Origin: Vulgatibacter incomptus
Lineage (GTDB): Bacteria; Myxococcota; Myxococcia; Myxococcales; Vulgatibacteraceae
Direction: 5' to 3'
DNA length: 64,000 nucleotides
Assembly (NCBI RefSeq): GCF_001263175.1
Contig: NZ_CP012332.1
Location: 2,601,501-2,665,500, forward strand
The notes below the pieces were generated by a model, which saw only the letters and a program-made list of their open reading frames with translations, was not told the origin of the DNA and searched no databases. Both the position numbers and the translations under genes were made by a program. Position 1 is the first letter of the stretch. The number at the start of each line of letters is the position of its first letter. This document shows positions 40,374 through 57,890 of this stretch, piece by piece.

Positions 40374-40408
40374 GGTCGCACGATCGATGCGGCCTGCCGG
40401 AGGGGCCA

Positions 40409-40438: not shown

Positions 40439-40513
40439 TTTGATCTGCGCTGTCGGCGAGGGCGGACGTGCCCAGGTTCAAGGCGCGCGGTGGCGCAAGG
40501 AAAGGGGCCCGAC

Positions 40514-41020
40514 GTGATCCAGCCTCGGCTCGAGAGATACCTTCGCGAACGCGGGACGCCCTACCGCTTCCTCGGGCACCCGCGGGCCATCGCCTCCCAG
40601 GAGACCGCCGAGGCCGAGGGCATCTCGGGCTGGCAGCTCGCCAAGAGCGTGGTGGTCGACCTGGCGGCCGGCGACGAGGTGATCTGCGTGGTCCCCGCGC
40701 CGACCTGGGTCGACCTGGACGCGGTCTGCGACGCCACCGAGACCGAAGACGCGATCCTCAGCGACGAGGACCGCATGCGTGAGCTCTTCCCGGGTTGCGA
40801 GGTCGGCGCCGAGCCTCCCTTCGGCGGCCTCTGGAACCTGCCGGTGATCTTCGATCCGAGCCTCCTCGCGATCGACCGGATCCTGATGAACGCCGGCACC
40901 CACGACGACCTCATCGAGCTCCGCACGGAGGACTATCTGATCCTCGAGCGCCCCCTCCTCGCCCCGATCGCCGTGATGCCCGGCGAGCCGTGGCGCCACG
41001 CGATGCCCGCCGAGGTGTAG
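40514..41020 (+). CDS. YbaK/ProX-type aminoacyl-tRNA deacylase domain protein
   Basis: 168 residues. The fold is recognisable from PYRFLGHPRAIASQETAEAE, the conserved Lys in GWQLAKSVVV, and LWNLPVIFDPSLLAIDRILM with the HDDLIELRTEDYLILERPL end. YbaK/ProX proteins clear mischarged tRNAs in trans (Cys- or Ala-tRNA-Pro). GTG start at 40514 with AAGGAAAGGGG upstream. It is the only plus-strand gene inside the dcw region, facing fic tail-to-tail with 4 nt between stops, so it interrupts the ddl-to-ftsQ run. Substrate unknown. Confidence 0.85.
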   Translation: MIQPRLERYLRERGTPYRFLGHPRAIASQETAEAEGISGWQLAKSVVVDLAAGDEVICVVPAPTWVDLDAVCDATETEDAILSDEDRMRELFPGCEVGAEPPFGGLWNLPVIFDPSLLAIDRILMNAGTHDDLIELRTEDYLILERPLLAPIAVMPGEPWRHAMPAEV

Positions 41021-41024
41021 CTCG

Positions 41025-42164
41025 TCACGGATCGTCGCGCTCTGGCGACGGAGACGCGGCTCGGCCGACGAGCGCATAGCTCGTGCTCCGGCCGCCAGAC
41101 GCCTCGCGACGCAGAATGCCGCGGGCAATCAACTCCGAGATGTCGCGCAGGGCCGTGTCCTGCGAGCACTTCGCCAGCTTCGCCCACTTGGAGGTGGTGA
41201 GCTTTCCCGTCCACGGGCCGAGGAGTCGCTGGATGACGATGCGCTGGCGCTCGTTGAGTGTCTCCCGCGGGTGCTCGTCCCAGAATCGAGACACATCGAG
41301 GACCGAGGCGAGAGTCGCCTCGGCTCCTTCGATCGCGCGCCCGAGGCACCGGAGGAACCAGTCCAGCCACGGCGTGACGTCGGGCGTTCCTCGCTGTGTG
41401 GACTCGAGGATCTCGTAATAGCCCTTCCGCTCCCGGCACACCTGCGCGGACATGCTGTAGTAGCGCTGCGAGCTTCCGTCTGAACGGGCAAGTGCGAGAT
41501 CGGTGATCGCGCGTGCGATGCGTCCGTTCCCATCCTCGAAAGGATGGATCGTGACGAATCGCAGGTGCGCCAAACCGGCGCGGAGGACTGGGTCGCGGGG
41601 GGCGGCTCCGCTCTCGAACCAATCGAGGAACGAGCCCATCTCAGACGGAACGCGGGAGGGCGCTGGAGCGACGAAATGGACACGCTCTCGTCCAATCGGC
41701 CCAGACACCACCTGCATCGGCCCTGAATCCTCTGGCCGCCATCCCCCGACCCGAATCCGCCTCATGCCGCTGAAGCCGGTCGGGAACAGGACCGCGTGCC
41801 AGCCACACAGCCGCTCCTCCGCCAGGGGCTCGGCGAACCGTTGCGTCGCGTCGAGCATCATCTCGACCATCCCCTCGACGTTCCGATCCACCGGCTGCAG
41901 GCCGCCCTCGTCGATCCCCAACCGCCGAGCGATGGAAGAGCGAACCTGCGCCCGATCGAGGATCTCTCCCTCGATCTCGCTCGACGTGATCACGTCTGCC
42001 GTGAGGGTCTGGAGGAGCGTCTCCGATCTCAGCGGAAACCCAATCCCCTCCATCCGGCCAAACAGTCGGCCCTGTCGATGGCGAACGTCGGCGAGCCGCT
42101 CGGCAAGAGTCGGAAGATCCCACTCCAGGGCGGGCCATCCCGCGCGCTCGTGGATGAAAGGCAC
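41025..42164 (-). CDS. Fic-domain protein (AMPylase-type) with C-terminal winged helix
   Basis: 379 residues. N-terminal DUF4172/Fic_N-like part with the inhibitory alpha-helix motif TSSEIEGE ((S/T)xxxE(G/N), autoinhibition in cis), catalytic HPFEDGNGRIARA with all consensus residues, and a C-terminal winged-helix-like segment (LTTSKWAKLAKCSQDTALRD, ISELIARGILRREASGGRST). Fic enzymes usually transfer AMP to hydroxyls of target proteins. The intact HxFx(D/E)GNGRxxR suggests activity held in check by the Glu. GTG start with AGGAG 11 nt upstream. It sits between ddl and ftsQ, has its own operator-like repeats upstream, and probably came in as a separate unit. Confidence 0.9.
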   Translation of the reverse strand: MPFIHERAGWPALEWDLPTLAERLADVRHRQGRLFGRMEGIGFPLRSETLLQTLTADVITSSEIEGEILDRAQVRSSIARRLGIDEGGLQPVDRNVEGMVEMMLDATQRFAEPLAEERLCGWHAVLFPTGFSGMRRIRVGGWRPEDSGPMQVVSGPIGRERVHFVAPAPSRVPSEMGSFLDWFESGAAPRDPVLRAGLAHLRFVTIHPFEDGNGRIARAITDLALARSDGSSQRYYSMSAQVCRERKGYYEILESTQRGTPDVTPWLDWFLRCLGRAIEGAEATLASVLDVSRFWDEHPRETLNERQRIVIQRLLGPWTGKLTTSKWAKLAKCSQDTALRDISELIARGILRREASGGRSTSYALVGRAASPSPERDDP

Positions 42165-42165
42165 G

Positions 42166-42263
42166 ATTCACCGCACTCCTTGCGGAGATTCTGCGCCTCG
42201 CTTGGCCTCCGGGCAAGTGAATCGCCGCAGGCACTGCGGTGATTGGAGACCCCATTCACCGCA
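42166..42263 (-). promoter_or_regulatory. Operator-like repeats upstream of fic
   Basis: Three copies of a 10-bp motif lie in the fic upstream region: ATTCACCGCA at 42166-42175, touching the ribosome site, its complement TGCGGTGATT at 42235-42244, and ATTCACCGCA again at 42254-42263. The last two form an inverted repeat with 8-bp perfect arms. Fic proteins of this type with a winged helix may control their own gene, and these would be the sites. The remaining bases to the ddl stop (42264-42357) show no gene. Confidence 0.6.
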
Positions 42264-42357
42264 AGGGCCGGCCGATCGCATGCCCTCCCCTCCGCCGACC
42301 GAGCCCGTGATACGGCCGCCGTTCGGGAAGATGGTCTTCCCTTCAGGCGCGCGGCGC

Positions 42358-43278
42358 TCAGGCCTTGAGCGACGCGCCGGCGAGGATGCGCTCGCAGAGG
42401 TCGGCGAAGTCGAGGCCGACGCCGGCGGCGATCTTGGGGAGGAGCGAGGTCTCGGTCATGCCCGGCAACGTGTTCACCTCGAGCACCCGGAGGTCGCCGT
42501 CGTCGGAGACGATCAGATCGGTGCGGGTGGCGCCGGAGCAGCCGAGGGCTCGGTGGGCGGCGAGGGCCGCGTCGAGGGTGGCCTTGTAGAGAGGCTCGGG
42601 CAGCGGGGCCGGGAAGAGGTAGCGGGTGGTGCCGCCGGACTTGTACTTGGCCTGGTAGTCGTAGAACTCGGCGGCGGGGACGATCTCGATGGCGCCCAGG
42701 GCCTCGTCGTCGAGGACGGCGACCTGGACCTCGCGGCCCTTGTGGTAGCGCTCGAGGATCACGTCGCCCTTGAAGCGGGCGGCGTCCTCGCAGGCGGCGG
42801 TGAGGGCGGCCTGGTCGCGGGCGATATGGACGCCGACGGAGGAGCCCTCGGAGGCCGGCTTGACCACGACGGGGAGCGGGAACGGGAGGTCCTCGGCCTG
42901 GAGCTTGCGGGCCTTCTCGGGGCGCATGGAGACCCAGGCAGGCGTGGGGATGCCGCGGGCGTCGAAGACCTGCTTGGAGGCGACCTTGTCCATGGCGAGG
43001 GCGCTCGAGAGGACGCCGGAGCCCGTGTAGGGCAGGCCCATGGACTCGAGGAGGCCTTGGATGCAGCCGTCCTCGCCGAAGCGGCCGTGGAGGCCGATGA
43101 AGACGGCCTCCGCGCCGAGCTCGCGGAGGCGCGCGGCGACGTCGAGCTCGACGTCGAGGAGGTGGGCGTCGTAGCCGCGGGAGGCCAGCGCCTTGTGGAT
43201 GGCGGCTCCGGTCCACAGGGAGACCTCGCGCTCCGCCGACCTTCCCCCGTAGAGGACCACCACCTTCTTCGTCTTCAT
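42358..43278 (-). CDS. ddl: D-alanine--D-alanine ligase
   Basis: 306 residues, ATP-grasp enzyme joining two D-Ala for the peptidoglycan stem. Motifs: VVVLYGGRSAEREVSLWTG, FIGLHGRFGEDG, PYTGSGVLSSALAMDKVASK, VVKPASEGSSVGVHI, and EVNTLPGMTETSL with the second Mg site. ATG 43278 starts MKTKKVVVLYGG, the usual N-terminus; longer frames add basic non-conserved residues. It follows murB after 63 nt. Cytoplasmic. A normal dcw member, but here the next gene is fic rather than ftsQ. Confidence 0.96.
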   Translation of the reverse strand: MKTKKVVVLYGGRSAEREVSLWTGAAIHKALASRGYDAHLLDVELDVAARLRELGAEAVFIGLHGRFGEDGCIQGLLESMGLPYTGSGVLSSALAMDKVASKQVFDARGIPTPAWVSMRPEKARKLQAEDLPFPLPVVVKPASEGSSVGVHIARDQAALTAACEDAARFKGDVILERYHKGREVQVAVLDDEALGAIEIVPAAEFYDYQAKYKSGGTTRYLFPAPLPEPLYKATLDAALAAHRALGCSGATRTDLIVSDDGDLRVLEVNTLPGMTETSLLPKIAAGVGLDFADLCERILAGASLKA

Positions 43279-43341
43279 CTCGCTCACGATATCGTCGTCC
43301 CGATGTCTCTCGCGCGCCCTTGCGCGCGCTTGGTGCAAGGA

Positions 43342-44259
43342 TCAAACGCCCCAGCGGCCCAGGAGCTTCACCTCGGGGGTGAGCTCGACGCCGAACCGCG
43401 CGGCGACCTCGGCCTTCGCGGCCTCGATGAGGAAGCGTACATCCGAAGAACGCGCGCCGCCCAGGTTCACGATCCAGTTGGCGTGGAGCTCGCTGATCTG
43501 GGCGCCCCCCTGCCGCCGCCCCTTCAGGCCGCAGGCCTCGATGAGGCGGCCTGCGTGGTCGCCCGGCGGGTTGGTGAAGACGCTCCCCGAGTTGGGGAGC
43601 TGCAACGGCTGGGTCCGCTTGCGGTATCCCAGGTCCGCCTCCATGGCGGCGCGGGAGGCCTGGAGGCCCGCCTCGTCCACGCGACGCAGGCGCAGCCGCA
43701 GCCGGGTCACCACCGAGCCCACGGGGAGCTCGCAGCGGCGATAGCGCCACGTCAGCTCGTCGCGCGGGATCCAGCGCACGCCGCTGGCGGAGGCGAGCTC
43801 GACGGCCTCGACCACCTGCACGAGCTCGCCGTTCTTGGTGCCGGCGTTCATGGCGGTGGCGCCGCCGAGGGTGCCCGGGATGCCGGCGAGGAACTCGGCG
43901 CCCACGAGGCCGTGGGCCTTCATGAGCTGGGGCACCTTGGTGATGGGCGCGCCGGCGGAGAGGACGAAGCTGCCGCCGGACTCGTCGAGCGCCTCCTCGG
44001 CGGGAGCGGCGGGGAGGCGGACGACCACGCCCTCCACACCGTCGTCGGCGACGAGGCTGTTGGCGCCGCCGCCGAGGACGGTGACGGGGACGTCCGCCGA
44101 GGCGCAGGCGACGAGGAGGACGCGGAGATCGTCGGAGTCGGCGGGCCTGGCGAAGAGGTCGGCCGCCCCGCCGGTGCGCACGCTCGTGCGGACGGCCAGG
44201 GGCTCGTTCGCCCGCAGCTCGCCGCGCAGATGGCGCGAGAGCTCGCCGTGGAGGCTCAT
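43342..44259 (-). CDS. murB: UDP-N-acetylmuramate dehydrogenase MurB
   Basis: 305 residues, type II size. FAD-binding TSVRTGGAADLFARPADS, VTVLGGGANSLVADDGVEG, FLAGIPGTLGGATAMNAG, the catalytic NSGSVFTNPPGDHAG (Ser) and C-terminal TPEVKLLG (Glu). It reduces the enolpyruvyl group of UDP-GlcNAc-enolpyruvate to UDP-MurNAc with NADPH. Starts 43 nt after murC. A normal dcw gene with nothing odd seen. Confidence 0.97.
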   Translation of the reverse strand: MSLHGELSRHLRGELRANEPLAVRTSVRTGGAADLFARPADSDDLRVLLVACASADVPVTVLGGGANSLVADDGVEGVVVRLPAAPAEEALDESGGSFVLSAGAPITKVPQLMKAHGLVGAEFLAGIPGTLGGATAMNAGTKNGELVQVVEAVELASASGVRWIPRDELTWRYRRCELPVGSVVTRLRLRLRRVDEAGLQASRAAMEADLGYRKRTQPLQLPNSGSVFTNPPGDHAGRLIEACGLKGRRQGGAQISELHANWIVNLGGARSSDVRFLIEAAKAEVAARFGVELTPEVKLLGRWGV

Positions 44260-44302
44260 CGCGCCAGGCTCCCGTCGCGGCCGATGGTGACCCGTGCCAC
44301 GC

Positions 44303-45676
44303 TCACTGCCCCAGGAGCTCCAGGAGCTCGGTGCTCACCTGGCTGATGTCGCCGGCGCCAAGAGTGATCACCAGGTCGCCCTCGCGGACGGCCCCGCGCA
44401 GCGTGGAGGCGAGCCCGGACCGCTTCGCGAAGTCCACGTCGCGGTGGCCGTGGGAGCGGACGGCGCCGGCGAAGGCCTCGCCGGTGACGCCCGGGATCGG
44501 ATCCTCGCTGGCGGCGTAGATCTCGGTGACGAGCAGGCGGTCGGCCTCGTTGAAGGAGGTGGCGAAGTCGGCGAGGAGGTCCCGCGTCCGCGAGTAGCGG
44601 TGGGGCTGGAAGGCGACGACGATCCGCCGCTTGGGGAAGGCCCGCCTGGCGCCGTCGAGGGTGGCCTTGATCTCGGCCGGATGGTGCCCGTAGTCGTCGA
44701 CGACGGTGACACCAGCCGCCTCTCCACGGATGGTGAAACGCCTCTGCACACCCGAGAAGGTCTCGAAGGCGTCGCGCACCTTGTCCATGGGCAGGCCCAC
44801 GTCGTCGGCGACGGCGATGGCGGCCAGGGCGTTCTGCACGTTGTGGAGGCCGATCATGGGGAGGCGGAAGGCGCCCAGCGGCTCGCCTCCCCTCGTGGCC
44901 ACGAACTTCACCTCGAAGGCGTTCGTCTCGATGGCCTCGGCCCGGTAGTCGGCCTGGGGCGAGAGCCCGTAGGTGACGCAGCGGCGGTCGACGCTGGGGA
45001 GCATCGCCTGCACCACCGGGTGGTCGGCGCACATCACGGCCACGCCGTAGAAGGGCACCTTGTTGACGAAGTCGACGAAGGCGCGCTGGAGCGTGTCGAA
45101 GTCGCCGTAGTGGTCGAGGTGCTCAGGGTCGACGTTGGTGACGACGGCGATCGCCGGCGAGAAGCGCAGGAAGCTGCCGTCGGACTCGTCGGCCTCCACC
45201 ACCATGTACTCGCCGTTGCCGAGCTTGGCGTTGGAGCCGAGGTTGTTGAGCTTGCCGCCCACCACGGCGGTGGGGTCGAGGCCGCCCGCGGCGAGGAGGT
45301 GGGCGATCATCGAGGTGGTGGTGGTCTTGCCGTGGGAGCCCGCGACGGCGATGCCGACCTTGAGGCGCATGAGCTCCGCGAGCATCTCCGCCCGGGGAAT
45401 CACGGGGATGGCCCGGCGGCGCGCCTCTACCACCTCGGGGTTCTGCTGGCGAACGGCCGAGGAGATCACGACCACGTCGGCCTTGCCCACGTTCTCGGCC
45501 CGGTGACCGACTGCGATCCGCGCGCCGAGGCCCTCGAGGCGGCGGGTGGTGTCGCCCTCCTTGAGGTCGGAGCCCGTGACGGGATAGCCGAGGTTCACGA
45601 GCACCTCGGCGATGCCGCTCATCCCGATCCCGCCGATGCCTACGAAGTGGATGGTCGGCCTTCTGCCTCGAAACAC
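44303..45676 (-). CDS. murC: UDP-N-acetylmuramate--L-alanine ligase MurC
   Basis: 457 residues from GTG 45676. N-terminal [19 protein letters not shown] motif [60 protein letters not shown] and FQPHRYSRT. It adds L-Ala to UDP-MurNAc. The GTG is preceded by TTGGAGAGA at good distance and puts the GIGGIG motif at residue ~13, as in the family. An ATG at 45772 gives a longer, non-conserved tail and no ribosome site. The 125 nt between murG and this start hold nothing else. Confidence 0.95.
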
Positions 45677-45801
45677 GTCTCTCTCCAACCGCTCTGCCCG
45701 CGCCCGGGCGCCTGTCTCCAGAAGAACCGCCTGCGAGCCGGGAACGCCGAACGTCCGACCACCTGGCTCCATGCCCGTGTGGCGGCGAAGCGGCGCGACC
45801 G

Positions 45802-46902
45802 TCAGCCCGCGCCCTGCTCTCTCCCCCGGTAAACGAGATTCACACAGACGTCGGCGATCTCCTTCGCGGCCTCGGGGCGGCCGAGGAGGCCCGCCGCCCG
45901 CTCCATCTTCTTCAGGCGCGACGGATCCTCCATCAGGCTCGAGATCTCGGAGGCGAGGCGTTCGCCGTCGAGCTCGGGCTGGCGGATCATCACCGCGGCG
46001 CCCTTCTCCACCAGCGAGCGTGCGTTCACCTCCTGGTGGTTGTCGGCGGCGTACGGGAAGGGGACGAGGATCGCGGCCTTCTTGCAGACGGTGAGCTCGG
46101 AGAGCGTGGTCGCGCCGGAGCGGCAGATCACCAGGTTGCTGGTGGCGTAGGCCCGGGACATGTCGTCGATGAACTCCACCACCTCGGCGCGGACGCCGGC
46201 GTCGGCGTAGCCCTTGCGCGTGAACTCCCGGTCCGCGGCGCCGGTCTGGTGGAGGATCTCGAGCTTGTCGCGCATGGGCGCGAGCTTCCGCGCGGCGTCG
46301 ATGGCGGCGACGTTGATCGCGTGGGCGCCCTGGGAGCCGCCGAAGATCAGGATTCGGAAGCGCTCGTGGGGCTCCTGGGGCCTGAGGAAGTTCTCCATCA
46401 GCGCCTTGCGGATCGGGTTGCCTACGTTGTGGACCTTGTCCTTGGGGAAGAAGCGCGCCGCCTCGTCGAAGGAGATGAAGACGGTCCGCGCGATCTTTCC
46501 GAGGAGGCGGTTTGTCAGGCCCGGGAGCGCGTTCTGCTCCTGGATCGCGGTGGGCATCCCGCGCAGGAAGCCGGCGAAGACCATGGGGAAGCTCGCGTAC
46601 CCGCCGACTCCGACGACGACGTCCGCCTGGTACTCCCGGAGGATCGTCATGCACCGGAGCACCGCAGCGGGCAACCGGAGCAAGCCGCCGATGAGGCCCT
46701 TGAGGCCGCGCCCCTTCACGCCGGTCACGTCGATGAGCTCGAGCTTGAAGCCGCTCTGGGGCACCACGCGCGCCTCGATGCCGCGGGCGGTCCCGACGAA
46801 GAGCACGTCGTTGGAGGGGTGGCGCGTGACCACCTCTTCGGCGAGGGCGATTCCGGGAAAGAGATGGCCGCCGGTGCCTCCCCCCGCGATCACGACCTTC
46901 AT
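45802..46902 (-). CDS. murG: Undecaprenyldiphospho-muramoylpentapeptide GlcNAc transferase MurG
   Basis: 366 residues, GT28. G-loops [20 protein letters not shown] and [10 protein letters not shown], then [29 protein letters not shown], and the UDP-GlcNAc site [20 protein letters not shown]. It converts lipid I to lipid II on the inner face of the membrane. ATG start, 30 nt after ftsW. The context is fully consistent with the dcw cluster. Confidence 0.98.
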
Positions 46903-46932
46903 CGCCTCACCTTCATCGCCTGAACCGTGCCT

Positions 46933-48114
46933 TCATCGCCGGACCGTCCGATGCGGGCGGAGGAAGCCGCCGGTGCCGCTCGAGATCGCGAGGAGCACGC
47001 CCGCGGACACGAGGGATAGCACGAGCGAGGTTCCGCCGTACGAGATGAACGGGAGGGTGAGTCCCTTGGTGGGGAGCAGGCCCATCGCCACCAGCATGTT
47101 GACGATGGCCTGTACGCCGAGGAGCGCGGTGAGGCCCAGGGCGAGGTAGGCGCCGAACGCGTCCGGGGCGTTGAAAGCGGCGCGCATCCCCCGCCAGAGC
47201 ACGACGCCGAAGAGGACGAGGACGGCGAGGATCCCGAGGAGGCCGAGCTCCTCGCCGATCACGGCGATGATGAAGTCGGTGTGGGCCTCGGGCAGGTAGT
47301 AGAGCTTCTGCTTGCCGGCGCCGAGGCCGAGGCCGGTGAGGCCGCCGGAGCCCACGCTCATCAGGGACTCCGCCACCTGGTAGCCGATGTCCTGGCGGTG
47401 CTTCCACGGATCCAGGAAAGCCAGGATCCGCTTCATCCGGTACTCCTTGCCGGCGACGAGGTGCCACGCGATGGGGAGCGAGACGAGAACGGTGCCGACG
47501 AGCCAGGAGATCTTCGCGCCCGAGCAGAAGAGCATCACGAAGAGGATCAAGCCGATGGTGACCGCGGTGCCGAAGTCGGGCTGCCCGAGCACCAGCAGGA
47601 TGAAGAGGCCGGCGACGATGGTGTGGGGCACGAAGCCGATGGAGAAGTCCCGCACCTTCTCCCGTTTTCGGGAGAGCGAGCGAGCGAGGTAGAGGGCCAT
47701 CGCGACCTTGGCGATCTCGCCCGGCTGCAGGCTGAAGAGCGGGAGGCGGATCCAGCGCCGCGCGCCGCCGGCCATCGAGCCGATGCCCGGGATGAGCACC
47801 AGGATCAGGGCGATCAGCGAGACCAGCAGGATCGGGTAGGCGAGGGGCTCGAGGCGCCTGTAGCCGAAGCGCATGGCCGCGATCATCCCGGCCATGCCGA
47901 GACCTGCCGCAGCGGCCTGCCGCTTCACGAAGTAGAAGGAGTCGCCGAGGCCCTGGGCCGCCTTCACCGCCGAGGCGGAGTAGACCATGGTGAGGCCGAG
48001 GGCCGTCAGGGCGAGGACGGCCCAGAGCAGGACCCGGTCGTACGCGGGTGCCTCGTCGCCCTGATCGGCGCGGGCGTCGTCGTAGACGGCTTCGGAACGG
48101 AGCTCGGCGTTCAC
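46933..48114 (-). CDS. ftsW: Septal peptidoglycan polymerase FtsW (SEDS family)
   Basis: 393 residues with about ten TM helices. SEDS motifs: VYSASAVKA near the first helix, ARRWIRLPLFSLQPGEIAKV, LGQPDFGTA (Asp and Glu/Gln region), EAHTDFIIAVIGEELG and LPFISYGGTSLV. It polymerises lipid II with its partner FtsI at the septum. GTG 48114 with GGGAGG 5 nt before is chosen; a longer frame would run back into murD. Lies 25 nt after murD. Confidence 0.96.
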   Translation of the reverse strand: MNAELRSEAVYDDARADQGDEAPAYDRVLLWAVLALTALGLTMVYSASAVKAAQGLGDSFYFVKRQAAAAGLGMAGMIAAMRFGYRRLEPLAYPILLVSLIALILVLIPGIGSMAGGARRWIRLPLFSLQPGEIAKVAMALYLARSLSRKREKVRDFSIGFVPHTIVAGLFILLVLGQPDFGTAVTIGLILFVMLFCSGAKISWLVGTVLVSLPIAWHLVAGKEYRMKRILAFLDPWKHRQDIGYQVAESLMSVGSGGLTGLGLGAGKQKLYYLPEAHTDFIIAVIGEELGLLGILAVLVLFGVVLWRGMRAAFNAPDAFGAYLALGLTALLGVQAIVNMLVAMGLLPTKGLTLPFISYGGTSLVLSLVSAGVLLAISSGTGGFLRPHRTVRR

Positions 48115-48139
48115 TCGCGCCTCCCGCAGGGAAGGGTCG

Positions 48140-49513
48140 TCACGGGAGCGCCTCCACGAGCGCGCGGAAGGCGGCGCCGCGGTGCTCGTAGCTCCGGAAC
48201 TGGTCGAAGGAGGCGCAGGCCGGCGAGAGGAGGACCGCCTCGCCCGGGAGGGCCATGCCTTCGGCGACCCGGACCGCCTCGTCGAGGGTGCCACAGCTCG
48301 TGGCGGGAGCGAGGTCGCCGAGGGCGGAGGCGATCGCCTGGGCGTCGCTGCCGATGGTGAGAATGGCCTTCACACGACCGGGGAGGAGCGCGCGAAGCGG
48401 CTCGTACGGCGCCCCCTTCCCCAGGCCCCCGGCGATCCACACCAGCGGCCCCGGGAGGGCGGCCAGGGCCACCTTCACCGAGTCCACGTTGGTGGCCTTG
48501 GAGTCGTTGATCCACTCCGTGCCGCGGAGGGTGCGCACCAGCTCGAGCCGGTGGGGGAGCCCGCCGAAGGAGGCGAGGCCGGCGCGGATCGCCTCGGGCG
48601 CGGCGCCGCAGAGCCGGGCCGCGAGGATCGCCGCCATCGCGTTCTCGCGGTTGTGCCGCCCGCGCAACGCCGGAGAGAGGCGCTCGTAGAGCTCCTCTTC
48701 TTCCCCGCCCACGCCGCGGACGACGATCCGCTTCCCGTCGTCCCGGGCGGCGCGATCGTCCCCGGCAAGCTCGACCGCGCCGTGCCCGAAGGAAACGGGC
48801 TTGGAGAGGGCGCCGCGGTGGAGCGCGAGGACCTCGGGATCGCCCGCGTTGAGGACGGCGAAGTCGCTCTCGCGCTGCGCCCGGAAGATCGCTCGCTTCG
48901 CCTCGTAGTAGTCCTGCGGGCCGGGGTAGCGATCGAGGTGATCGGGGCTGAGGTTGGTGACCACGGCCACGTGGGGCCGAAGGGTCTCTACCGCCTCGAG
49001 CTGAAAGCTGGAGAGCTCGGCCACCGTGACGTCCAGGGCGCCGCCGGCGAGCACCCGCTCGGAGAGCGGCGTGCCCAGGTTGCCTCCCAGGAAGACTCGT
49101 TTTCCGGCGGCCGTGAGGAGGTGGCCGATCAGCGCCGTAGTGGTGCTCTTGCCGTTGGTGCCGGTGATCCCGACCACGGGCTCCTCGATGAAGGTGGCGG
49201 CGAGCTCCGCCTCTCCGATGATCGGCACGCCGGCCGCCCGCGCCGCGACGAGCTCGCGGCCGGCGAGGGGCACGCCGGGCGAGACCACGATGAGCTCGGC
49301 GGAGGTGAAGGCGGCCTCGTCGTGGCCGCCCAGCTCGAAGCGGACGCCGAGGGGCAGCAGCGCCTCCACGGCCGGGCCCAGCTCGGCGGCTTTTCGTCCA
49401 TCGGTCGCCGTGACGATGGCGCCCTCGCGGCAAAGGAGCTTCGCCGCGGCGACACCAGAGCGCGCCAGGCCCACCACGAGCACCCGTCGACCTGCGAGAG
49501 CAAGCATCAGCAT
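48140..49513 (-). CDS. murD: UDP-N-acetylmuramoylalanine--D-glutamate ligase MurD
   Basis: 457 residues. N-terminal VLVVGLARSGVAAAKLL, VVSPGVPL, ATP motif GITGTNGKSTTTALIG, ELSSFQLEAV, NLSPDHLDRY, HNRENAMAAILAA, INDSKATNVDS and LLSPACASFDQF. It adds D-Glu to the stem peptide. Its ATG overlaps the mraY stop by one base (TGATG); a second in-frame ATG 6 nt on fits a GAGG ribosome site better, so the true start may be 49507. Confidence 0.96.
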   Translation of the reverse strand: MLMLALAGRRVLVVGLARSGVAAAKLLCREGAIVTATDGRKAAELGPAVEALLPLGVRFELGGHDEAAFTSAELIVVSPGVPLAGRELVAARAAGVPIIGEAELAATFIEEPVVGITGTNGKSTTTALIGHLLTAAGKRVFLGGNLGTPLSERVLAGGALDVTVAELSSFQLEAVETLRPHVAVVTNLSPDHLDRYPGPQDYYEAKRAIFRAQRESDFAVLNAGDPEVLALHRGALSKPVSFGHGAVELAGDDRAARDDGKRIVVRGVGGEEEELYERLSPALRGRHNRENAMAAILAARLCGAAPEAIRAGLASFGGLPHRLELVRTLRGTEWINDSKATNVDSVKVALAALPGPLVWIAGGLGKGAPYEPLRALLPGRVKAILTIGSDAQAIASALGDLAPATSCGTLDEAVRVAEGMALPGEAVLLSPACASFDQFRSYEHRGAAFRALVEALP

Positions 49514-50625
49514 CACCTCAGCTTCAGGCTGATCAGGGTCACGAGGGAGAGGAGGATCGCCACGATCCAGAAGCGCACGATGATCTTGGGCTCGGCGGAG
49601 CCGCCGAGCTCGAAGTGGTGGTGGATGGGCGCCATGCGGAAGACGCGCTTGCCCCGGCTCTTGAACGAGGCCACCTGGATCATCACCGAGACGATCTCCA
49701 CGAAGAAGACGCCGTGGAGGATCACGCTGGCGAGCTCGTTCTTGGTGAGGACCGCGAGGGTTCCCAGCGCGCCGCCGAGGGCGAGGGCGCCGATGTCGCC
49801 CATGAAGACGCTGGCCGGGTAGGTGTTGAACCAGAGGAAGGCGATCCCCGCGCCGACGGTCGCCGCGCAGAAGACGGCGAGCTCCTCGGCGCCGGCGATG
49901 TGGGGGATGAAGAGGTAGTCGGCGACGTTGAAGCCGGCGATCACCGTGCCCGCGAGGTACGCGAGGATCAGGAAGGTGAGCGAGCTCACGATGGTGGGGC
50001 CGATGGCGAGGCCGTCGAGGCCGTCGGTGATGTTCACCGCGTTCGAGGTCCCGACCACCACCACCCACGCGAAGGGGAGGAAGAACCAGCCCAGGTCGGG
50101 CTGGAAGTACTTCGTCGACACGAAGGGCAGGCTGAGGTGCGTGTCGAAGCGGAGCGCGAACGTGCTCCAGTCGAGGCCGAAGCCCAGGAAGGCAGCGAGG
50201 AAGATCGCGGTGAGCCCCACCATCTTCAGCCGCCCCGGCAGCCCCTTGGAGTTGCGCTTGGTGAGCTTCAGGTAGTCGTCGAGGAAGCCGACGAGGCCGT
50301 AGCCCAGGGTCACGACCAGCACCATCCACACGTGGCGGTTGGTGAGGTCGGCGAAGAGGAGCGTGGACACCGAGAGGCAGAAGAGGATCAGGCCGCCGCC
50401 CATGGTGGGCGTGCCGCGCTTCTTCTGGTGCCGCTCGGGCGTGTCTTCCCGCACGTTGGAGGCGCCGTACTGCCGGCTCCTCAGCTCGCGGATGAACCAG
50501 GGCCCGAGCCACATGCCGAGCACGAGGCTGAAGATCCCCGCGGCGATGATCCGGAAGCTCGGATAGCGGAAGACGTTGAGGACTGCGAGCTTGTGCGCGA
50601 GCGGGTACAGCAGGTGATAGAGCAT
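49513..50625 (-). CDS. mraY: Phospho-N-acetylmuramoyl-pentapeptide transferase MraY
   Basis: 370 residues, about ten TM helices. Catalytic and substrate motifs: KRGTPTMGG, FLDDYLKLT (Asp pair), NAVNITDGLDGLA, FMGDIGALALGG, and MAPIHHHFEL (His triad). It transfers phospho-MurNAc-pentapeptide to undecaprenyl phosphate, producing lipid I. The ATG follows the murF stop without any gap, and its stop overlaps murD. Confidence 0.97.
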   Translation of the reverse strand: MLYHLLYPLAHKLAVLNVFRYPSFRIIAAGIFSLVLGMWLGPWFIRELRSRQYGASNVREDTPERHQKKRGTPTMGGGLILFCLSVSTLLFADLTNRHVWMVLVVTLGYGLVGFLDDYLKLTKRNSKGLPGRLKMVGLTAIFLAAFLGFGLDWSTFALRFDTHLSLPFVSTKYFQPDLGWFFLPFAWVVVVGTSNAVNITDGLDGLAIGPTIVSSLTFLILAYLAGTVIAGFNVADYLFIPHIAGAEELAVFCAATVGAGIAFLWFNTYPASVFMGDIGALALGGALGTLAVLTKNELASVILHGVFFVEIVSVMIQVASFKSRGKRVFRMAPIHHHFELGGSAEPKIIVRFWIVAILLSLVTLISLKLR

Positions 50626-52044
50626 CTAGACTTCCTCCCCCTTTACGAGGGGGTCGGCGATCCGCTCCAGGCGCGTGCCGCGGCTGGCCTTGAAGAGCAC
50701 GAGGTCGCCTTCGCGCAAGCTGCGGCGCAGCCACGCGAGGGCCTCGGCGGGATCGTCCGTTGAGAGGATGGCGGCGTCGGGGATCCCCCGAGCCGCAGCC
50801 TCGGCGGCGGTGGTGCGGGAGCGCGGGCCGAAGGCGACCAGGCCGGCCACCTTCGCCTCCGCTGCCGCCGCTCCCACCTCGCGATGGCCGGACTCCTCGA
50901 AGGAGCCGAGCTCGCGGAGATCGCCGAGGACCGCGACGACGCGGCCCTCGCCGGCGAGGGCCCGTGAGGTGCGCAGCGCCGCGACGGCAGAGGCCGGGTT
51001 GCCGTTGTAACAATCGTCCAGCACGGTCACACCGCCGGGGGCGGCCTTGAGCTCGAGCCGGCGCAGGAAGCCCTTCGCGGCGGCGAGGCCCGTCAGCAGG
51101 CGGTCGGGCGCGGCACCGAGGGCGAGGCCCAGCGCCAGAGCAGCGCAGGCGTTCTGCGCGTTGTGGAGGCCCACCAGCGGGATCCGCACGAACGCGGGAT
51201 CGCTGCCCCGGAACGAGACCTCGAAGGCGAGCCCGCGCAGGTCGTGGGAGACGATCCGGACCAGGCGGACGTCGGCCTCCGCGCCGGTACCGAAGGTGAG
51301 GAGGGGGCGGCGGGAGGCCCGGGCCTCGGCGAGGGTGAGGGGATCGTCGAGGTTCGCCACCGCCACCGCGCCGGGGGGCAGGCCGTGGAAGAGCTCGCCC
51401 TTGGCCTTGGCCACCGCCTCGATCGAGCCGAGCCCCTCCAGGTGAACGGCCTGTGCACAGGTGACGAGGCCCGCGGAGGGCTCCGCGATCGCGGCGAGGC
51501 GGCCGATCTCGCCGGGGTTGCTCATGCCCATCTCGACCACCGCCGCCCGATGGGAGGGATCGAGGCGCAGCAGGGTGAGCGGGAGGCCGATCTCGTTGTT
51601 CAGGTTGCCCTCGGTCTTGAGGGACTCGCCGAAGGCGAAGGAGATCGCCGCGTGGGCGAGCTCCTTGGTGGTGGTCTTGCCGTTGCTCCCGGTGACCGCG
51701 CCGAGCTTCAAGGAAGGGAAGCGCCGGCGGTGCACCCTCGCGAGGGCGCCCAGCGCCGCCAGGGTGTCGGAGGTCTCTACGAGGCCGAAGCCGGCGGGCA
51801 GAGGCTCACTCGGAGTGAAACCTTCACGCACCAACGCAGCCCGTGCCCCAGCGCGGGCGGCCTGGGCCACGAAGGCGTTTCCGTCGAAGCTCTCCCCGCC
51901 CAGGGCGACGAAGAGGTTGCCCTCGGAGACGGTGCGGCTGTCGGTGGAGACGCCGTCCAGCGCCAGGAGCGGTTCGCCGGCCCGAAGGGCGCCGCGGACA
52001 GCGGCTTTCACGTCCGCGAGGCAGAAGATCGCCCGGTTCGTCAT
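50626..52044 (-). CDS. murF: UDP-MurNAc-tripeptide D-alanyl-D-alanine ligase MurF
   Basis: 472 residues. ATP-binding TGSNGKTTTKELAHA, KTEGNLNNEIGLPLTLLRL, VVEMGMSNPGEI, HNAQNACAALALG, LDDCYNGNPASAVAAL and VAVLGDLRELGS. It adds the D-Ala-D-Ala dipeptide. The ATG overlaps the murE stop by 4 nt (ATGA) and its stop touches the mraY start. Normal length and context. Confidence 0.97.
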   Translation of the reverse strand: MTNRAIFCLADVKAAVRGALRAGEPLLALDGVSTDSRTVSEGNLFVALGGESFDGNAFVAQAARAGARAALVREGFTPSEPLPAGFGLVETSDTLAALGALARVHRRRFPSLKLGAVTGSNGKTTTKELAHAAISFAFGESLKTEGNLNNEIGLPLTLLRLDPSHRAAVVEMGMSNPGEIGRLAAIAEPSAGLVTCAQAVHLEGLGSIEAVAKAKGELFHGLPPGAVAVANLDDPLTLAEARASRRPLLTFGTGAEADVRLVRIVSHDLRGLAFEVSFRGSDPAFVRIPLVGLHNAQNACAALALGLALGAAPDRLLTGLAAAKGFLRRLELKAAPGGVTVLDDCYNGNPASAVAALRTSRALAGEGRVVAVLGDLRELGSFEESGHREVGAAAAEAKVAGLVAFGPRSRTTAAEAAARGIPDAAILSTDDPAEALAWLRRSLREGDLVLFKASRGTRLERIADPLVKGEEV

Positions 52045-53546
52045 CGATCCATCCTCGAGCCCAGCGCGCGGCGGAGCTCCTCGCGGTCGTCGAAGTGCAG
52101 GCGCTGGTCGCCGACGAGCTGGTAGGTCTCGTGGCCCTTGCCCGCGACCAGCACGAAGTCGCCCGGACGCGCGCAGGCCACCGCGAGCTCGATCGCAGAG
52201 CGGCGGTCGGGCTCCACCGCAAAACCCAAAGCGCCGGCGCGGGCTTCCTCGTGGGAGAGGCGCCTGCTGCCCGCGCGCTCGAGGCCCGGGAGGATGCCGG
52301 CGATGATCTCCTCCGGCCTCTCGGACCGGGGGTTGTCGCTGGTGACGATGGCGAGATCCGCTGCGCGGGCCGCCACCTCACCCATCAGCGGGCGCTTTCC
52401 CTTGTCCCTGTCGCCGCCACAGCCGAAGACCACCAGGAGGCGGCCTTTGCCCGCCTGGCGCAGGGCCGCGCAGACCCGGGCGAGGGCGTCATCGGTGTGG
52501 GCGTAGTCCACGAAGGCGGAGAAGCCCTCGCCGTCCACGCGCTCCAGCCGCCCCGGCGCGCCATGGGCTCCGAACAGTCCCTTGGCGATCGCCTCGAGGC
52601 CATGGCCACACGCGAGGGCGAGGCCCGTGGCGCAGAGCAGGTTCTGCAGGTTGTGGGCGCCGACGAGGGGCGAGCGCAACGCGAAGCCGCCGGCAGGCGT
52701 CGCCACGTCTGCCCGTATCCCGGCGTCGGAGAACTCCACGTTTCGTGCAAAGATCTCGCACGCAGAGTCGTCGATGGAGAAGCGGAGGAGCGTCGTGGGA
52801 TCGACGCTCTCCGCGAGCTGCCGGCCCCAGGCGTCGTCGGCGTTGATCACCGCAGCGCCACCATCGCGCAGGTGGTCGGAGAAGAGCCGCGCCTTCGCCT
52901 CGAAATAGGCCTCCATGGAGCCGTGGTAATCGAGGTGATCGCGGGTGAGGTTGGTGAAGGCGGCCGCGGCGAAGCGGAGGCCCTCCACCCTTCCCTGCTC
53001 GAGCGCATGGGACGAGACCTCGAGCACCGCGGAGTCGCACCCCTCCGCGACCATCGTGCCCAGGAGCTTCGACAGGCTCACCGAGTCGGGCGTGGTGTGC
53101 GTGGTGGGGAGCTCCTTCGCGCCGGCGAATGCGCCGGTGGTCCCGATGACGCCGCAGGACGAGCCCGCCGCCACGGCGATGGAGCGGAAGAGCCAGCTCA
53201 CCGTGGTCTTTCCGTTGGTGCCGGTGATCCCCACCAGCGAGAGCTTCTCCTCCGGATGGCCCTGCAGCGCCGCAGCGCAGCGGGCGAGCGCTGCCCGGGT
53301 GCTCGCGACCCGGATCACGAGGGCGCCGGGAGCGTCGACCTCGCGCTCGACCAGGATCGCGGCGGCGCCCTTGGCCGCTGCCTGCGCCGCGAAGTCGTGG
53401 CCGTCGCGGCTGCCGCCCGCCACGCAGACGAAGAGCGCGCCGTCCCCCGCCTCGCGGGAGTCCGCCGTCACCGCGCGGATCTCGGGATCGGGGGTACCGG
53501 GCGGGAGGCTTCCGCCGACGTCTGCGATGAGCTGCGAGAGGCGCAT
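52041..53546 (-). CDS. murE: UDP-MurNAc-tripeptide synthetase MurE (meso-DAP type)
   Basis: 501 residues. ITGTNGKTTVSWLFRS (ATP), EVSSHALEQGRV, NLTRDHLDYHGSME, HNLQNLLCATGLAL, FVDYAHTDDALA, and TSDNPRSERPEEI. DNPR is the signature of meso-diaminopimelate-adding MurE, whereas lysine-adding enzymes differ there, so this organism's peptidoglycan is expected to be meso-DAP type. ATG start, 57 nt after the ftsI stop. Agrees with the ddh gene at 25.6 kb. Confidence 0.97.
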   Translation of the reverse strand: MRLSQLIADVGGSLPPGTPDPEIRAVTADSREAGDGALFVCVAGGSRDGHDFAAQAAAKGAAAILVEREVDAPGALVIRVASTRAALARCAAALQGHPEEKLSLVGITGTNGKTTVSWLFRSIAVAAGSSCGVIGTTGAFAGAKELPTTHTTPDSVSLSKLLGTMVAEGCDSAVLEVSSHALEQGRVEGLRFAAAAFTNLTRDHLDYHGSMEAYFEAKARLFSDHLRDGGAAVINADDAWGRQLAESVDPTTLLRFSIDDSACEIFARNVEFSDAGIRADVATPAGGFALRSPLVGAHNLQNLLCATGLALACGHGLEAIAKGLFGAHGAPGRLERVDGEGFSAFVDYAHTDDALARVCAALRQAGKGRLLVVFGCGGDRDKGKRPLMGEVAARAADLAIVTSDNPRSERPEEIIAGILPGLERAGSRRLSHEEARAGALGFAVEPDRRSAIELAVACARPGDFVLVAGKGHETYQLVGDQRLHFDDREELRRALGSRMDR

Positions 53547-53603
53547 GGGTCTGCCGCTTTCTACACCAATCCGTTCTGTCGTCTACAGCACCCGGCCCGC
53601 TGA

Positions 53604-55667
53604 CTACAGAGGCTCCAGGGCGATCGCCACCTGGCTGCCCCGCTCCACGATCGAGCCGGCGGGCGGACGCTGGGAGACGACCTTTCCGCTTCCTTCGAGG
53701 CTGGCCCCGAGCTTCGCGTCGCCCAGCTTTCGCAGGGCGGCGCGGGCGAAGAGGCCGCGGACGTCGGGCACCAGGACCTGGTCGCCGTCGCCAGGTGCGT
53801 CTTCCTCCGACACCCACCCCTCGGCGGGATCGTCGCGGGGGGTCGGCTTCTTCGGCTCCGGCTTCGCGCCCTTTGCCGCCGTCTTGTTCTTCTCGTCGGC
53901 CTTGGCGAGCAGTGGGAGCGACGGCGGGATCCCGCGGGACTTGAGCGCGGCCTCGGCGATCTCCCGGAAGACCGGCGCCGCGATCTGGCCGCCGTAGACG
54001 CTCCCCTCCTTCGGCTCGTCGATCATCACCACGATGGCGAGCTTCGGATCCTCGGCAGGGACGAAGCCCGCGAACGACGCGAGGCGGCCCTTGCCGTAGC
54101 GGCCGATCGAGGCGTCGACCTTCTGCGCCGTACCGGTCTTCCCCGCCACGCGATAGCCGTCGATCGCGGCCTTGCCCGCGGTCCCGTCGAGGACCACGTT
54201 CTCGAGCCACCGCGCGATCTCCTTCGCCGTGGCCGGAGAGATCGCCTGGCCGGCGACCTCCGGCTCGCCGCGGCGGATCACGGCGCCGTTCGGATCCACG
54301 ACCGAACGCACGATCCAGGGCTTCATCCTCGTGCCGCCGTTGGCGATCGCCGCGTAGCCCGAGGCGATCTGCAGCGACGACGCCATGATCGGCCCCTGGC
54401 CGAAGGACGCGGTCACGAGGCCGATCTCTCCCTTGAACGGCCTCATCAGGCCCGGCGACTCGCCGGGGAGCTCGATCCCGCCCCGCGTCCCAAAGCCGAA
54501 GTCCCGGTAGACCTGGGCGAGCCTCTCGTTTCCGAGCGCCATCGCCACCTTTCCCGAGCAGACGTTGGACGAGACGCGAAGGATGTCCGGGGGCGTGAGG
54601 GCGGGATAGGGATGCGTGTCGTGGATGACGTGCTTGCCGATCTTCCAGCGACCCTTCTCGCAGTCGAAGCTCTGGTCCTTGCGGATCGCCTTCCGATCGA
54701 GGGCGCCGGCGAGGACGAAGACCTTCATGGTCGAGCCGGGCTCGAAGGCGTCGGTCACCGCGCGGTTGCGGACCGCGGCGCGCCCCTTCGCCCCGGGGAT
54801 CACGTTCGGGTTGAAGGTCGGCATCGAGACCATGGCGAGCACCTCGCCCGTGGAGGGATCGAGCACGACGGCGGAGCCCGCCTCCGCGTTCGCCTTCTCC
54901 ACCGCCTTCGACAGCGCCTTCTCCGCCGCGTACTGGATCGTCCGATCGATCGTCAGGGTCACGGACGCGCCGGTCCGCTCCTCCATCGGCACCGCGGCCT
55001 CGGCGAGGAGCGCGTTGCCCCTCGCGTCCCGGAGGCCCGCCACCTGGGCGCCCTGGCCGCGGAGATCGTCGTCGAGGCTCCGCTCCAGGCCCTCGAGGCC
55101 GTGGCCGTCCGCGCCGACGAAGCCGAGAATCTGTGAAGCGAGCTCTTTCTGAGGGTAAAAGCGCCGCGACTCCTTCACGAAGCCGACGCCAGGCAGCCCC
55201 AGCGCCCGGACCTTGGCGACGATCGCCGGGCTGGACTTGCGGCGCACCCACACGAAGCGGCTGCCGGGCTGCGCGGACCGGGACTGGAGCGCGCGGAGCT
55301 TCTCGCGCGAGAGGCCCGCCGCCCTTCCCACCCTCTCCACGCCGTCACGGAGCTCGGCAGGGTCCCGGGCGAGGAGCCCCGGATCCACGAAGATCGACTC
55401 CACCTCGACGCTCGACGCGAGGGTGTTTCCGTCCCGGTCAAGGATGTCGCCCCGATGCGGCGACAGCTCCACCGTGCGGATGTACTGATCCCGCGCCAGC
55501 GTACCCAGCTTGTCCTGCTGGACGATCTGCAGATGGATCGCGCGCCCCAGCACCACGCAGAGGCCGACGCCGAGGAGCACGGCGAGGATCGTGGCGCGCA
55601 CGCGCACCCAGCGCGCGCCGTCCCAGGCGCCGGCAAATCGGCTCCCGGACATTCGCCCCTCGCTCAT
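53604..55667 (-). CDS. ftsI: Septal transpeptidase FtsI (PBP3) with C-terminal PASTA domain
   Basis: 687 residues. TM helix (VRATILAVLLGVGLCVVLGR), pedestal region (HRGDILDRDGNTLASS), then the penicillin-binding domain with EPGSTMKVFVLAGAL (catalytic Ser), VSSNVC (SxN) and RVAGKTGTAQKV (KTG). After a Lys/Pro/Glu-rich linker (~600-635) comes a PASTA domain (LVPDVRGLFARAALRKLGDA, VVSQRPPAGSIVERG). Most Gram-negative FtsI lack PASTA, but it recurs in Myxococcota. It cross-links septal peptidoglycan with FtsW. ATG overlaps the ftsL stop (ATGA). Confidence 0.96.
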   Translation of the reverse strand: MSEGRMSGSRFAGAWDGARWVRVRATILAVLLGVGLCVVLGRAIHLQIVQQDKLGTLARDQYIRTVELSPHRGDILDRDGNTLASSVEVESIFVDPGLLARDPAELRDGVERVGRAAGLSREKLRALQSRSAQPGSRFVWVRRKSSPAIVAKVRALGLPGVGFVKESRRFYPQKELASQILGFVGADGHGLEGLERSLDDDLRGQGAQVAGLRDARGNALLAEAAVPMEERTGASVTLTIDRTIQYAAEKALSKAVEKANAEAGSAVVLDPSTGEVLAMVSMPTFNPNVIPGAKGRAAVRNRAVTDAFEPGSTMKVFVLAGALDRKAIRKDQSFDCEKGRWKIGKHVIHDTHPYPALTPPDILRVSSNVCSGKVAMALGNERLAQVYRDFGFGTRGGIELPGESPGLMRPFKGEIGLVTASFGQGPIMASSLQIASGYAAIANGGTRMKPWIVRSVVDPNGAVIRRGEPEVAGQAISPATAKEIARWLENVVLDGTAGKAAIDGYRVAGKTGTAQKVDASIGRYGKGRLASFAGFVPAEDPKLAIVVMIDEPKEGSVYGGQIAAPVFREIAEAALKSRGIPPSLPLLAKADEKNKTAAKGAKPEPKKPTPRDDPAEGWVSEEDAPGDGDQVLVPDVRGLFARAALRKLGDAKLGASLEGSGKVVSQRPPAGSIVERGSQVAIALEPL

Positions 55668-56044
55668 CGCGCGGCGCCCGGGATCGGCACGATCCGGTCC
55701 GGCGCGGGCTCCACCATCCCGAGCTTGCCCCTGGCGTTGGCCTCGATCCGCTTCGCGCCCTTGCGGGTGGCGAGCTCGATCCGCAGCGCGTTCTGCTCGC
55801 GGAGGAGATCGGAGTGCTCCGCCTGGACGCGGGAGAGATCGTAGCCCGCCATCGTCCCCTCGATCCGGGTCCACGCGAAGATCGACGCGACGACGCAGAG
55901 CACGGCGAAGACCAGGAGGTCGGCGAGGACCCCGCGCGTCTCCACCGCTCCCCGCAGCTTCCGGCTCCGCTTGGGCCTCGAGGCACCGCGATGTGATCCG
56001 CGCGGCGCGGGGAGCACGGCGTCGTGCGCGGAATGGGCGCTCAT
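55664..56044 (-). CDS. ftsL: Cell division protein FtsL
   Basis: 126 residues. Basic N-terminal tail ([16 protein letters not shown]), a TM helix ([20 protein letters not shown]), then a coiled coil ([40 protein letters not shown]). It forms the FtsQLB complex that activates FtsWI. Identified by position and topology, since FtsL is poorly conserved. ATG 56044 overlaps the rsmH stop, and its stop overlaps ftsI. Confidence 0.85.
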
Positions 56045-56952
56045 AGCCTCTCCACCGCTCGCAGCTTCGCGCTGCGGGCACGGGGGTTCTCGGAGACCTC
56101 CGTCTCGTCCGCGACGATCGCCTTGCGGACCGGGAGGCGCCACTCGGCGGAGCCGCAGATGCAAACGGGCATCCCCGGAGGGCACCGGCAAGGATGGGCC
56201 AGGCCGGCGAACGCGTGCTTCACCATGCGATCCTCCAGCGAGTGGAAGGAGATCGCGGCGGCGCGCCCTCCCTTCGCGAGGATCCGCGGGAGCGACTCGA
56301 GCCAGTCCTCGAGCGCGCCGAGCTCGTCGTTCACCGCGATCCGGAGGCCCTGGAAGGTGCGGGTCGCGGGATGTATCCCCTTCGGCCACGCGCCCCTGGG
56401 GATCGCGCCGCCCACCACCTCGGCGAGCCGGGCCGTGTCGTGGATCGTGGGGAGCTCGCGCTTGATCGCCTTCGCGATCGGGCCGGCCCAGCGCTCCTCG
56501 CCGTAGGTGGCGATCACCCGCCGGAGCTCGCGATCGTCCACGCGGGCCAGGAACTCGTCCAGGCGCTCGGCGTCCTCGCCCATCCGCATGTCGAGGGGGC
56601 CCGCAGCCCGGAAGGAGAAGCCTCTCTCCGCCACGTCGAGCTGGGGGCTCGACACGCCCAGGTCGACGAGCACGCCATCCACCCGATCGATCCCGAGCTC
56701 GGCGAGGATCTCCTCGGCGTTCCGGAAGTTCCCCTGCACCGCCCGGAAGCGCTCACCGAAGGGGCGCAGCCGGTTGCGGGCGGCCTCGAGGGCCCTCGGA
56801 TCGCGATCGACGCCGATCACCTCGGCGCCCGCTTCCAGCAGCCGCTCGGAGTGTCCCCCGTATCCGAGCGTGCCGTCGAGGATCCTCCGGCCCGGCCCCG
56901 CGTCCAGGATCTCGACCGCCTGGCGGGCGAGTACGGTCACATGGGCAGGCAC
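56041..56952 (-). CDS. rsmH: 16S rRNA (cytosine-1402 N4)-methyltransferase RsmH (MraW)
   Basis: 303 residues. [16 protein letters not shown]-binding [65 protein letters not shown] and [13 protein letters not shown] with the terminal [11 protein letters not shown]. It methylates C1402 in 16S rRNA. In most dcw clusters it follows mraZ directly; here a STAS gene sits between (19 nt upstream). ATG start. Confidence 0.97.
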
Positions 56953-56971
56953 TGGGGGACCTCTCGTTCAA

Positions 56972-57370
56972 TCAGGAAAGGCCGGGGCCGGCCTCGGCAG
57001 CGAAATCGGCGACGGCGGTGCGCTCGTCCTCGAAGTACTCGAAGGCGTTGTAGAGCCCTTCGGCGCGGACGAGGTTAAAAAGATAGATCGAAAGGCCCGA
57101 GAGCTTGAGCCCCCCGCCCGACTGCTGCGAGAAGCGCGCGCAGGAGGCCAGGGAGCGGAAGCCGCCGTAGGGCACGTGGGAGACGCCGGAGAGGTCGAGG
57201 ACGAGGTTCGACCGGCCCGAGCAGACCAGGCTCACGAGCTCGTCGCAGAGCGAGGTCAGGTCCGTCTCGTCCAGGATGCCCGAGCGGGCGATGACGTGGA
57301 CGTCCGCGGTGACGGCGGCGGCGATGGCCGCGTCGTATCCCGAGATCTTCGCGTAGGTGATCTTGTTCAT
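56972..57370 (-). CDS. STAS-domain protein coupled to mraZ
   Basis: 132 residues. An alpha/beta sheet pattern typical of STAS (SpoIIAA/anti-sigma antagonist): ITYAKISGYDAAIAAAVTAD, VHVIARSGILDETDLTSLCD, SNLVLDLSGVSHVPYGGFRS and LSGLSIYLFNLVRAEGLYNA. Where anti-sigma antagonists carry the phosphorylated Ser (DxSGLG), it has VPYGGFRSL, so classical kinase control is unlikely; it may act as a scaffold or sensor. ATG overlaps the mraZ stop by 4 nt (ATGA), so it is translated with it, and rsmH follows 19 nt later. I know of no described role for a STAS protein in dcw. Confidence 0.75.
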   Translation of the reverse strand: MNKITYAKISGYDAAIAAAVTADVHVIARSGILDETDLTSLCDELVSLVCSGRSNLVLDLSGVSHVPYGGFRSLASCARFSQQSGGGLKLSGLSIYLFNLVRAEGLYNAFEYFEDERTAVADFAAEAGPGLS

Positions 57371-57825
57371 AGCCCCAGGTCCCCTAGTGCTCGAGCCAGG
57401 TTCTCCACCTGCTCGCGCTGCTTGAGCTTCCAGACGCGATAGGCCTCAGCGTCCCAAATCTCGATGAACTTGAGCGAGCCCACGAAGGCGACGTCCTTCG
57501 TGAGGCTTCCGTGCTCTCTCAGGCTCGGCGCCATCAGCATCCGGCCCAGCTTGTCGACCGGCGTCTCGTGGGCGCCGCCGACGAAGAGGCGAAGGAGCGT
57601 GTTGAGCTTGGGGTCGAAGTTCCCCCGTGCCGCCAACGTCTCCTCCACCGCCTGCCACTCCTCCATCGGATAGGCGCGGAGGCAGGGGTCGAGCGGGCTC
57701 GGGGCGACGACCAACGTCTGCCCTTCCGCACCGCCGTACTTCGCCGCGAGGACCTCACGGAACTTCGCCGGAAGGGACGTCCGTCCCTTGGCGTCGATCG
57801 CGTGCTCGAAGGTCCCGCGGAACAA
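57367..57825 (-). CDS. mraZ: Transcriptional regulator MraZ
   Basis: 152 residues from TTG 57825, the family length. Two AbrB-like halves: LFRGTFEHAIDAKGRTSLPA with the DxKGR signature, and TPVDKLGRMLMAPSLREHGS with DKxGR; FVGSLKFIEIWDAEAY closes it. MraZ represses its own operon by binding repeats upstream. The TTG has AGGGG 5 nt before and gives LFRG at the N-terminus, as usual. A GTG at 57864 would lie inside the operator repeats and has no proper ribosome site. Confidence 0.93.
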   Translation of the reverse strand: MFRGTFEHAIDAKGRTSLPAKFREVLAAKYGGAEGQTLVVAPSPLDPCLRAYPMEEWQAVEETLAARGNFDPKLNTLLRLFVGGAHETPVDKLGRMLMAPSLREHGSLTKDVAFVGSLKFIEIWDAEAYRVWKLKQREQVENLARALGDLGL

Positions 57826-57840: not shown

Positions 57841-57890
57841 CCGTGCCGATCCGCTTCGATCCACCTTTTACCACTTCCCCCCTCAAAATG
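57841..57890 (-). promoter_or_regulatory. Probable MraZ operator: five 10-bp-phased repeats
   Basis: On the minus strand a G-rich tetramer recurs every 10 bases: GAGG (57881-57884), GTGG (57871-57874), GTGG (57861-57864), GCGG (57851-57854) and ACGG (57841-57844). MraZ in E. coli and Mycoplasma binds direct repeats with this spacing (TGGG/GTG-type cores) upstream of mraZ. They lie 16-65 bases before the TTG start, in the position for autorepression of the whole dcw operon. Confidence 0.7.

Follow-up and report, generated by a model that had tools for sequence, protein, structure and literature searches.

A STAS-domain gene between mraZ and rsmH in the dcw cluster of Vulgatibacter incomptus and its relatives in the class Myxococcia

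We analyzed a stretch of 64,000 nucleotides from Vulgatibacter incomptus (RefSeq assembly GCF_001263175.1, contig NZ_CP012332.1, positions 2,601,501 to 2,665,500), referred to here as the window. It contains a co-directional dcw cluster in which a gene for a STAS-domain protein lies between mraZ and rsmH (Table 1). Few gene orders in bacteria are as well conserved as mraZ-rsmH at the head of the dcw cluster. The initial annotation had placed a STAS gene between these two neighbors without giving its strand, and profile searches bear out both identities (MraZ, PF02381, 6e-23; RsmH, PF01795, 1e-96). In the remainder of the cluster, murD was assigned by position only. A gene for a Fic-domain protein (DUF4172 and Fic domains; 41025–42164, minus strand) is found between ddl and ftsQ; its HPFEDGNGR motif is intact, and an SSEIEGE stretch resembles the N-terminal inhibitory motif.

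Table 1. Features at the mraZ-rsmH junction and in the surrounding dcw cluster (positions in the window).
Feature	Position	Strand	Description and basis
MraZ-box-like repeats GAGG-GTGG-GTGG-GCGG	57851..57884	(-)	10-bp period, upstream of mraZ; score attained in 0/200 shuffled versions of the upstream region
mraZ	57367..57825	(-)	From likely start TTG (MFRGTFEHAIDAKGR...); longest open reading frame starts at 57864
STAS-domain gene	56972..57370	(-)	132 aa, ATG start; open reading frame list, profile search, structure model
Codons of β3-α2 loop motif H65-V-P-Y68-G-G-F71	57158..57178	(-)	Arithmetic from the reading frame start at 57370
rsmH (mraW)	56041..56952	(-)	16S rRNA m4C1402 methyltransferase; profile search
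ftsL-like gene	55664..56050	(-)	Next in cluster; FtsL 0.0023, below cut-off; position
Rest of co-directional dcw cluster: ftsI, murE, murF, mraY, (murD), ftsW, murG, murC, murB, ddl, ftsQ, ftsA, ftsZ	36972..55650	(-)	Profiles

Because the Pfam and NCBIfam matches of MraZ begin at residue 14 of the longest open reading frame, the true start of mraZ is probably the TTG codon at position 57825. The longest frame overlaps the MraZ-box-like repeats. As first described, the STAS gene starts inside the mraZ stop: four bases (ATGA) are shared with the TGA codon, and the junction reads ...GGGGCTATGAACAAG. The GTG start codon of rsmH follows 19 bases past the stop of the STAS gene, with a Shine-Dalgarno-like sequence (GAGAGG) in between, and no Rfam match to a structured RNA was obtained in the region 55500–58500. 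The translational coupling with mraZ that had been proposed holds for the window species and for the one relative from the same family (L001 and L002), the only loci in which the ATGA overlap was seen, but does not extend to other lineages, where the STAS gene starts 2–95 bases past the mraZ stop. Since the overlap is limited to these two relatives, the coupling is a local trait. In part of family f6, the STAS gene overlaps the start of rsmH.

MraZ is reported to repress its own cluster, and its operator has been described for E. coli and Mollicutes (PMC8475190). Nearly every locus, the window included, has GTGG repeats with a 10-bp period ahead of mraZ, and these fit the described operator. 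Together with the overlaps and short gaps between the genes, the shared repeats suggest that the STAS gene is co-transcribed with mraZ and rsmH.

The 132-residue protein is a member of the STAS domain superfamily. It matches PF13466 (STAS_2, 3e-7) and PF01740 (STAS, 1.7e-5), both above the curated cut-off, and each of the 20 sampled orthologues matches both profiles. An AlphaFold2 model, for which an alignment of the window protein and 28 relatives served as input, reached a pLDDT of 84.6. When this model was compared to the PDB with Foldseek, the top matches were all STAS proteins (4hyl, SpoIIAA, RsbV, and RsbS), with TM-scores on the query of about 0.6–0.73; structure prediction thus returned the STAS fold and no other. 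The usual first β-strand could not be confirmed in the model, as the first ~20 residues are of low confidence. According to the profile search, the protein is a single domain with no recognized sensor domain. It scores below the cut-off of the anti-anti-sigma family TIGR00377 (17.8 against 53.45 bits).

The STAS_2 match, together with weak MlaB profile and PDB matches, would be compatible with an MlaB-like subunit of an MCE/Mla lipid transporter encoded apart from its operon, and the two MlaE permeases of the genome (at 1.10 and 2.00 Mb) have no STAS_2 or other STAS match near them. Against this stand a score for the MlaB equivalog NF033618 of 14.5 bits where the cut-off is 90, and a strict linkage to dcw rather than to mla genes. 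On these two grounds we rejected membership of the MlaB family, and a looser, MlaB-like role appears very unlikely.

The β3-α2 loop of the window protein reads VSHVPYGGF, and in profile alignments its tyrosine is aligned with the phosphorylated serine of SpoIIAA and TM1442, in agreement with the initial annotation, which had noted VPYGGF in place of the serine. Among 64 non-identical sequences of the family, the histidine of this loop is present in 63 and the tyrosine at the phosphoserine position in 58, giving a family loop H-[LVI]-[ND]-Y-R-G (consensus H-L-[ND]-Y-R-G-V). The window species (HVPYGGF) has kept the His and Tyr and lost the Asp/Asn and Arg. A serine occupies the phosphoserine position in a single sequence out of the 64, that of an f7 relative (L074, HLDSAG). 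The aspartate of the GELD motif is kept in 6/64 family members, among them the window protein (GILD), and a second tyrosine, Y96, is found in 61/64, preceded by a conserved serine. Canonical STAS proteins use these loops for partner contact, as in the SpoIIAA/SpoIIAB pair. By analogy, the lineage-specific conservation thus appears to cluster on the loops through which canonical relatives contact their partners.

A classical SpoIIAA switch is unlikely because the phosphoserine is absent. Its other components were sought by profile in the one genome of V. incomptus. No standalone kinase of RsbW/SpoIIAB size was found there, as HATPase_c_2 matches occur only in open frames of at least 382 residues, and no SpoIIE phosphatase scored above the cut-off, with one match below it. 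With no such kinase or phosphatase at the profile level, a classical serine-based partner switch is unlikely in this species. The profile search detected two STAS proteins in the genome in all; in the second, a STAS_2 protein (L070, G000:C1:2890354-2890572, plus strand), SDFG replaces the phosphoserine motif. The tests on loop, aspartate, kinase and phosphatase led us to reject the classical SpoIIAA switch, which had been considered improbable from the outset.

These observations bear likewise on a partner-switch protein with a changed switch residue, in which the loop Tyr (or His) would be modified and the protein would antagonize an unlinked anti-sigma factor or histidine-kinase-type ATPase. 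The tyrosine lies exactly at the phosphoserine position in 58 of the 64 sequences, the closest relatives of solved structure are SpoIIAA, RsbV, and RsbS, and the serine is still there in the f7 relative. However, the genome offers neither a kinase of the required size (the smallest HATPase_c_2 frame has 382 residues) nor a SpoIIE above cut-off, the canonical aspartate is not conserved, and in the loci read the immediate neighbors are mraZ and rsmH, without a kinase or sigma gene. We regard this explanation as unlikely.

A profile of the gene matched 142 of the 145 genomes of the class Myxococcia, including all 116 of good quality, so the gene is far from absent in close relatives. Comparison of match positions with rsmH positions placed it on the same strand and directly upstream of rsmH in 141 of the 142; in the sole exception (G065) both genes lie at contig ends, owing to a contig break. 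In the fetched loci the order mraZ-STAS-rsmH was read directly. Taxa carrying the gene include Myxococcus, Corallococcus, and Archangium, with M. xanthus among them (L051). A record titled Comamonas sp. KCTC 72670 (L050) has a Myxococcus-type dcw locus with a STAS protein 81% identical, and its name is probably wrong. Of the three genomes without a match, two are incomplete and also lack a found rsmH. The third, G141, is Anaeromyxobacter-like by our assumption, as is family f6; here the STAS gene is absent, and the stop codon of mraZ shares a GTGA sequence with the start codon of rsmH (L111:2110-2130). Provided that the assembly is correct, this is a clean loss, and the gene would hence not be essential everywhere. 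In f6 (L064, L065, L066, L069, L071, L072, L073), the STAS protein is reduced to about 100 residues, with a gap after α2 where the fourth strand is expected, and H-L-H-Y/F is kept.

In 27 loci from other classes of the phylum, mraZ and rsmH lie no more than about 200 bases apart, which leaves no room for the gene. One further class, represented by three genomes (G161, G162, and G163), has a divergent STAS gene in the corresponding position, with a Pfam STAS match in each of the three; their E-values with the follow-up profile are by construction, because that profile included their sequences. A two-gene tree did not fix the position of this second class relative to Myxococcia, and its two families were not grouped together. 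The presence of the gene in the two classes may reflect a single origin followed by losses, or two origins.

The STAS gene is under purifying selection, with a median dN/dS of about 0.34 in Myxococcaceae-type genomes, and evolves faster than both neighbors (mraZ, 0.14; rsmH, 0.24). Its retention at the same place throughout the class and this dN/dS value argue that the open reading frame is not a chance one. The faster evolution, the motif eroded in the window species, the shortening in f6, and the clean loss in G141 would suit a decaying hitch-hiker with little function, but near-universal retention in the class, the selection on the gene, and the near-invariant His and Tyr make this highly improbable.

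Protein distances of the STAS family correlate with those of MraZ (Spearman 0.86) and RsmH (0.78), consistent with vertical inheritance. Partial correlations were 0.57 for STAS-MraZ and 0.61 for STAS-RsmH, and a mirror-tree choice of partner was set aside, as these values single out neither protein. The value for RsmH, the placement immediately before rsmH in all but one of the 142 genomes, and the overlap with its start in part of f6 are compatible with a protein that binds the methyltransferase and tunes the m4C1402 modification of 16S rRNA, or RsmH stability. RsmH is kept, however, in all classes without the gene (the 27 adjacency loci), and we know of no precedent for such a partner; we think it improbable that this is the role of the protein.

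The initial annotation favored a sensor or scaffold linked to division or stress, which would here act on the divisome. The position of the gene in dcw and the structural likeness to the stressosome protein RsbS (TM 0.73 on query) are in line with this, but the protein is a single domain without a recognized sensor domain, and it is position alone that points to the divisome. This role is rather unlikely in our view.

The explanation we prefer, with a probability of roughly 0.5, is that the gene is an accessory dcw gene, inherited vertically, whose product is a STAS module for protein interaction that has no Ser switch and binds a dcw-linked partner. Near-universal in Myxococcia, the gene encodes a single-domain STAS protein in which the Ser/Asp phosphoswitch known from anti-anti-sigma factors is gone; on the face where canonical STAS proteins bind their partners, it has an H-x-x-Y loop specific to the lineage. 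Expressed from the putative MraZ-controlled dcw promoter alongside division and wall enzymes, such a protein would most likely act as an always-competent binding module, in which its level and not its phosphorylation would be the signal. MraZ would be our first guess for the partner, with modulation of operon repression as the effect, followed by RsmH and then by a divisome protein. The role is probably the tuning of dcw output or of a dcw product. Several observations weigh against this explanation: the partial correlations give MraZ no preference over RsmH, the gene evolves faster than mraZ and rsmH, the loop deviates in the window species and has Ser in the f7 relative, and G141 does without the gene. 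A more specific proposal, that the family forms a new subclass of STAS regulators (H-x-x-Y loop in place of a phosphoserine) with MraZ or a different dcw product as binding partner and with control over the output of division and wall genes in Myxococcia, is tentative.

If this proposal were true, the H-x-x-Y STAS regulator would add a lineage-specific layer of control to an otherwise conserved dcw cluster. The family is in any event a case of a STAS protein that is kept without the classical Ser switch. The gene is fixed at mraZ-rsmH throughout a class of bacteria that are predatory and undergo development, and its conserved, unusual loop provides a testable entry point; as the gene is present in the genetically tractable model M. 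xanthus, its function is directly testable there. The gene is presumably annotated in databases already as encoding a STAS-domain protein. In line with the initial annotation, which knew of no described counterpart, we found no publication in the open-access literature that deals with a STAS gene in the mraZ-rsmH interval, and no paper on the M. xanthus gene under locus tags near that of mraY (MXAN_5607), the exact tag being guessed. To our knowledge, no STAS protein has been described whose gene is an accessory member of dcw located between mraZ and rsmH.

Among known systems, SpoIIAA and RsbV (1th8, 1sbo, 6m36) share with the protein the single STAS domain and the same fold and are its best PDB profile matches. 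The family differs from them in having Tyr for the phosphoserine, Arg for the following Ser/Ala, and an added near-invariant His; the GELD aspartate is mostly lost, and the gene is flanked by mraZ and rsmH within dcw. RsbS, the STAS protein of the stressosome (6jhk, 2vy9), is likewise a single domain and has the highest TM-score among single-domain matches (0.73), whereas the protein described here has no Ser site and its gene has no RsbR/RsbT-type genes beside it in the loci read. MlaB, the STAS subunit of MlaFEDB, is similar in belonging to the STAS_2 family and in being a small cytosolic binding subunit; here, in contrast, the score is far below the equivalog cut-off, linkage to mlaE/mlaF is absent, and so is the Thr site. 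In its genomic setting, the gene resembles accessory genes of dcw clusters in general, being a lineage-specific gene in an otherwise conserved cluster.
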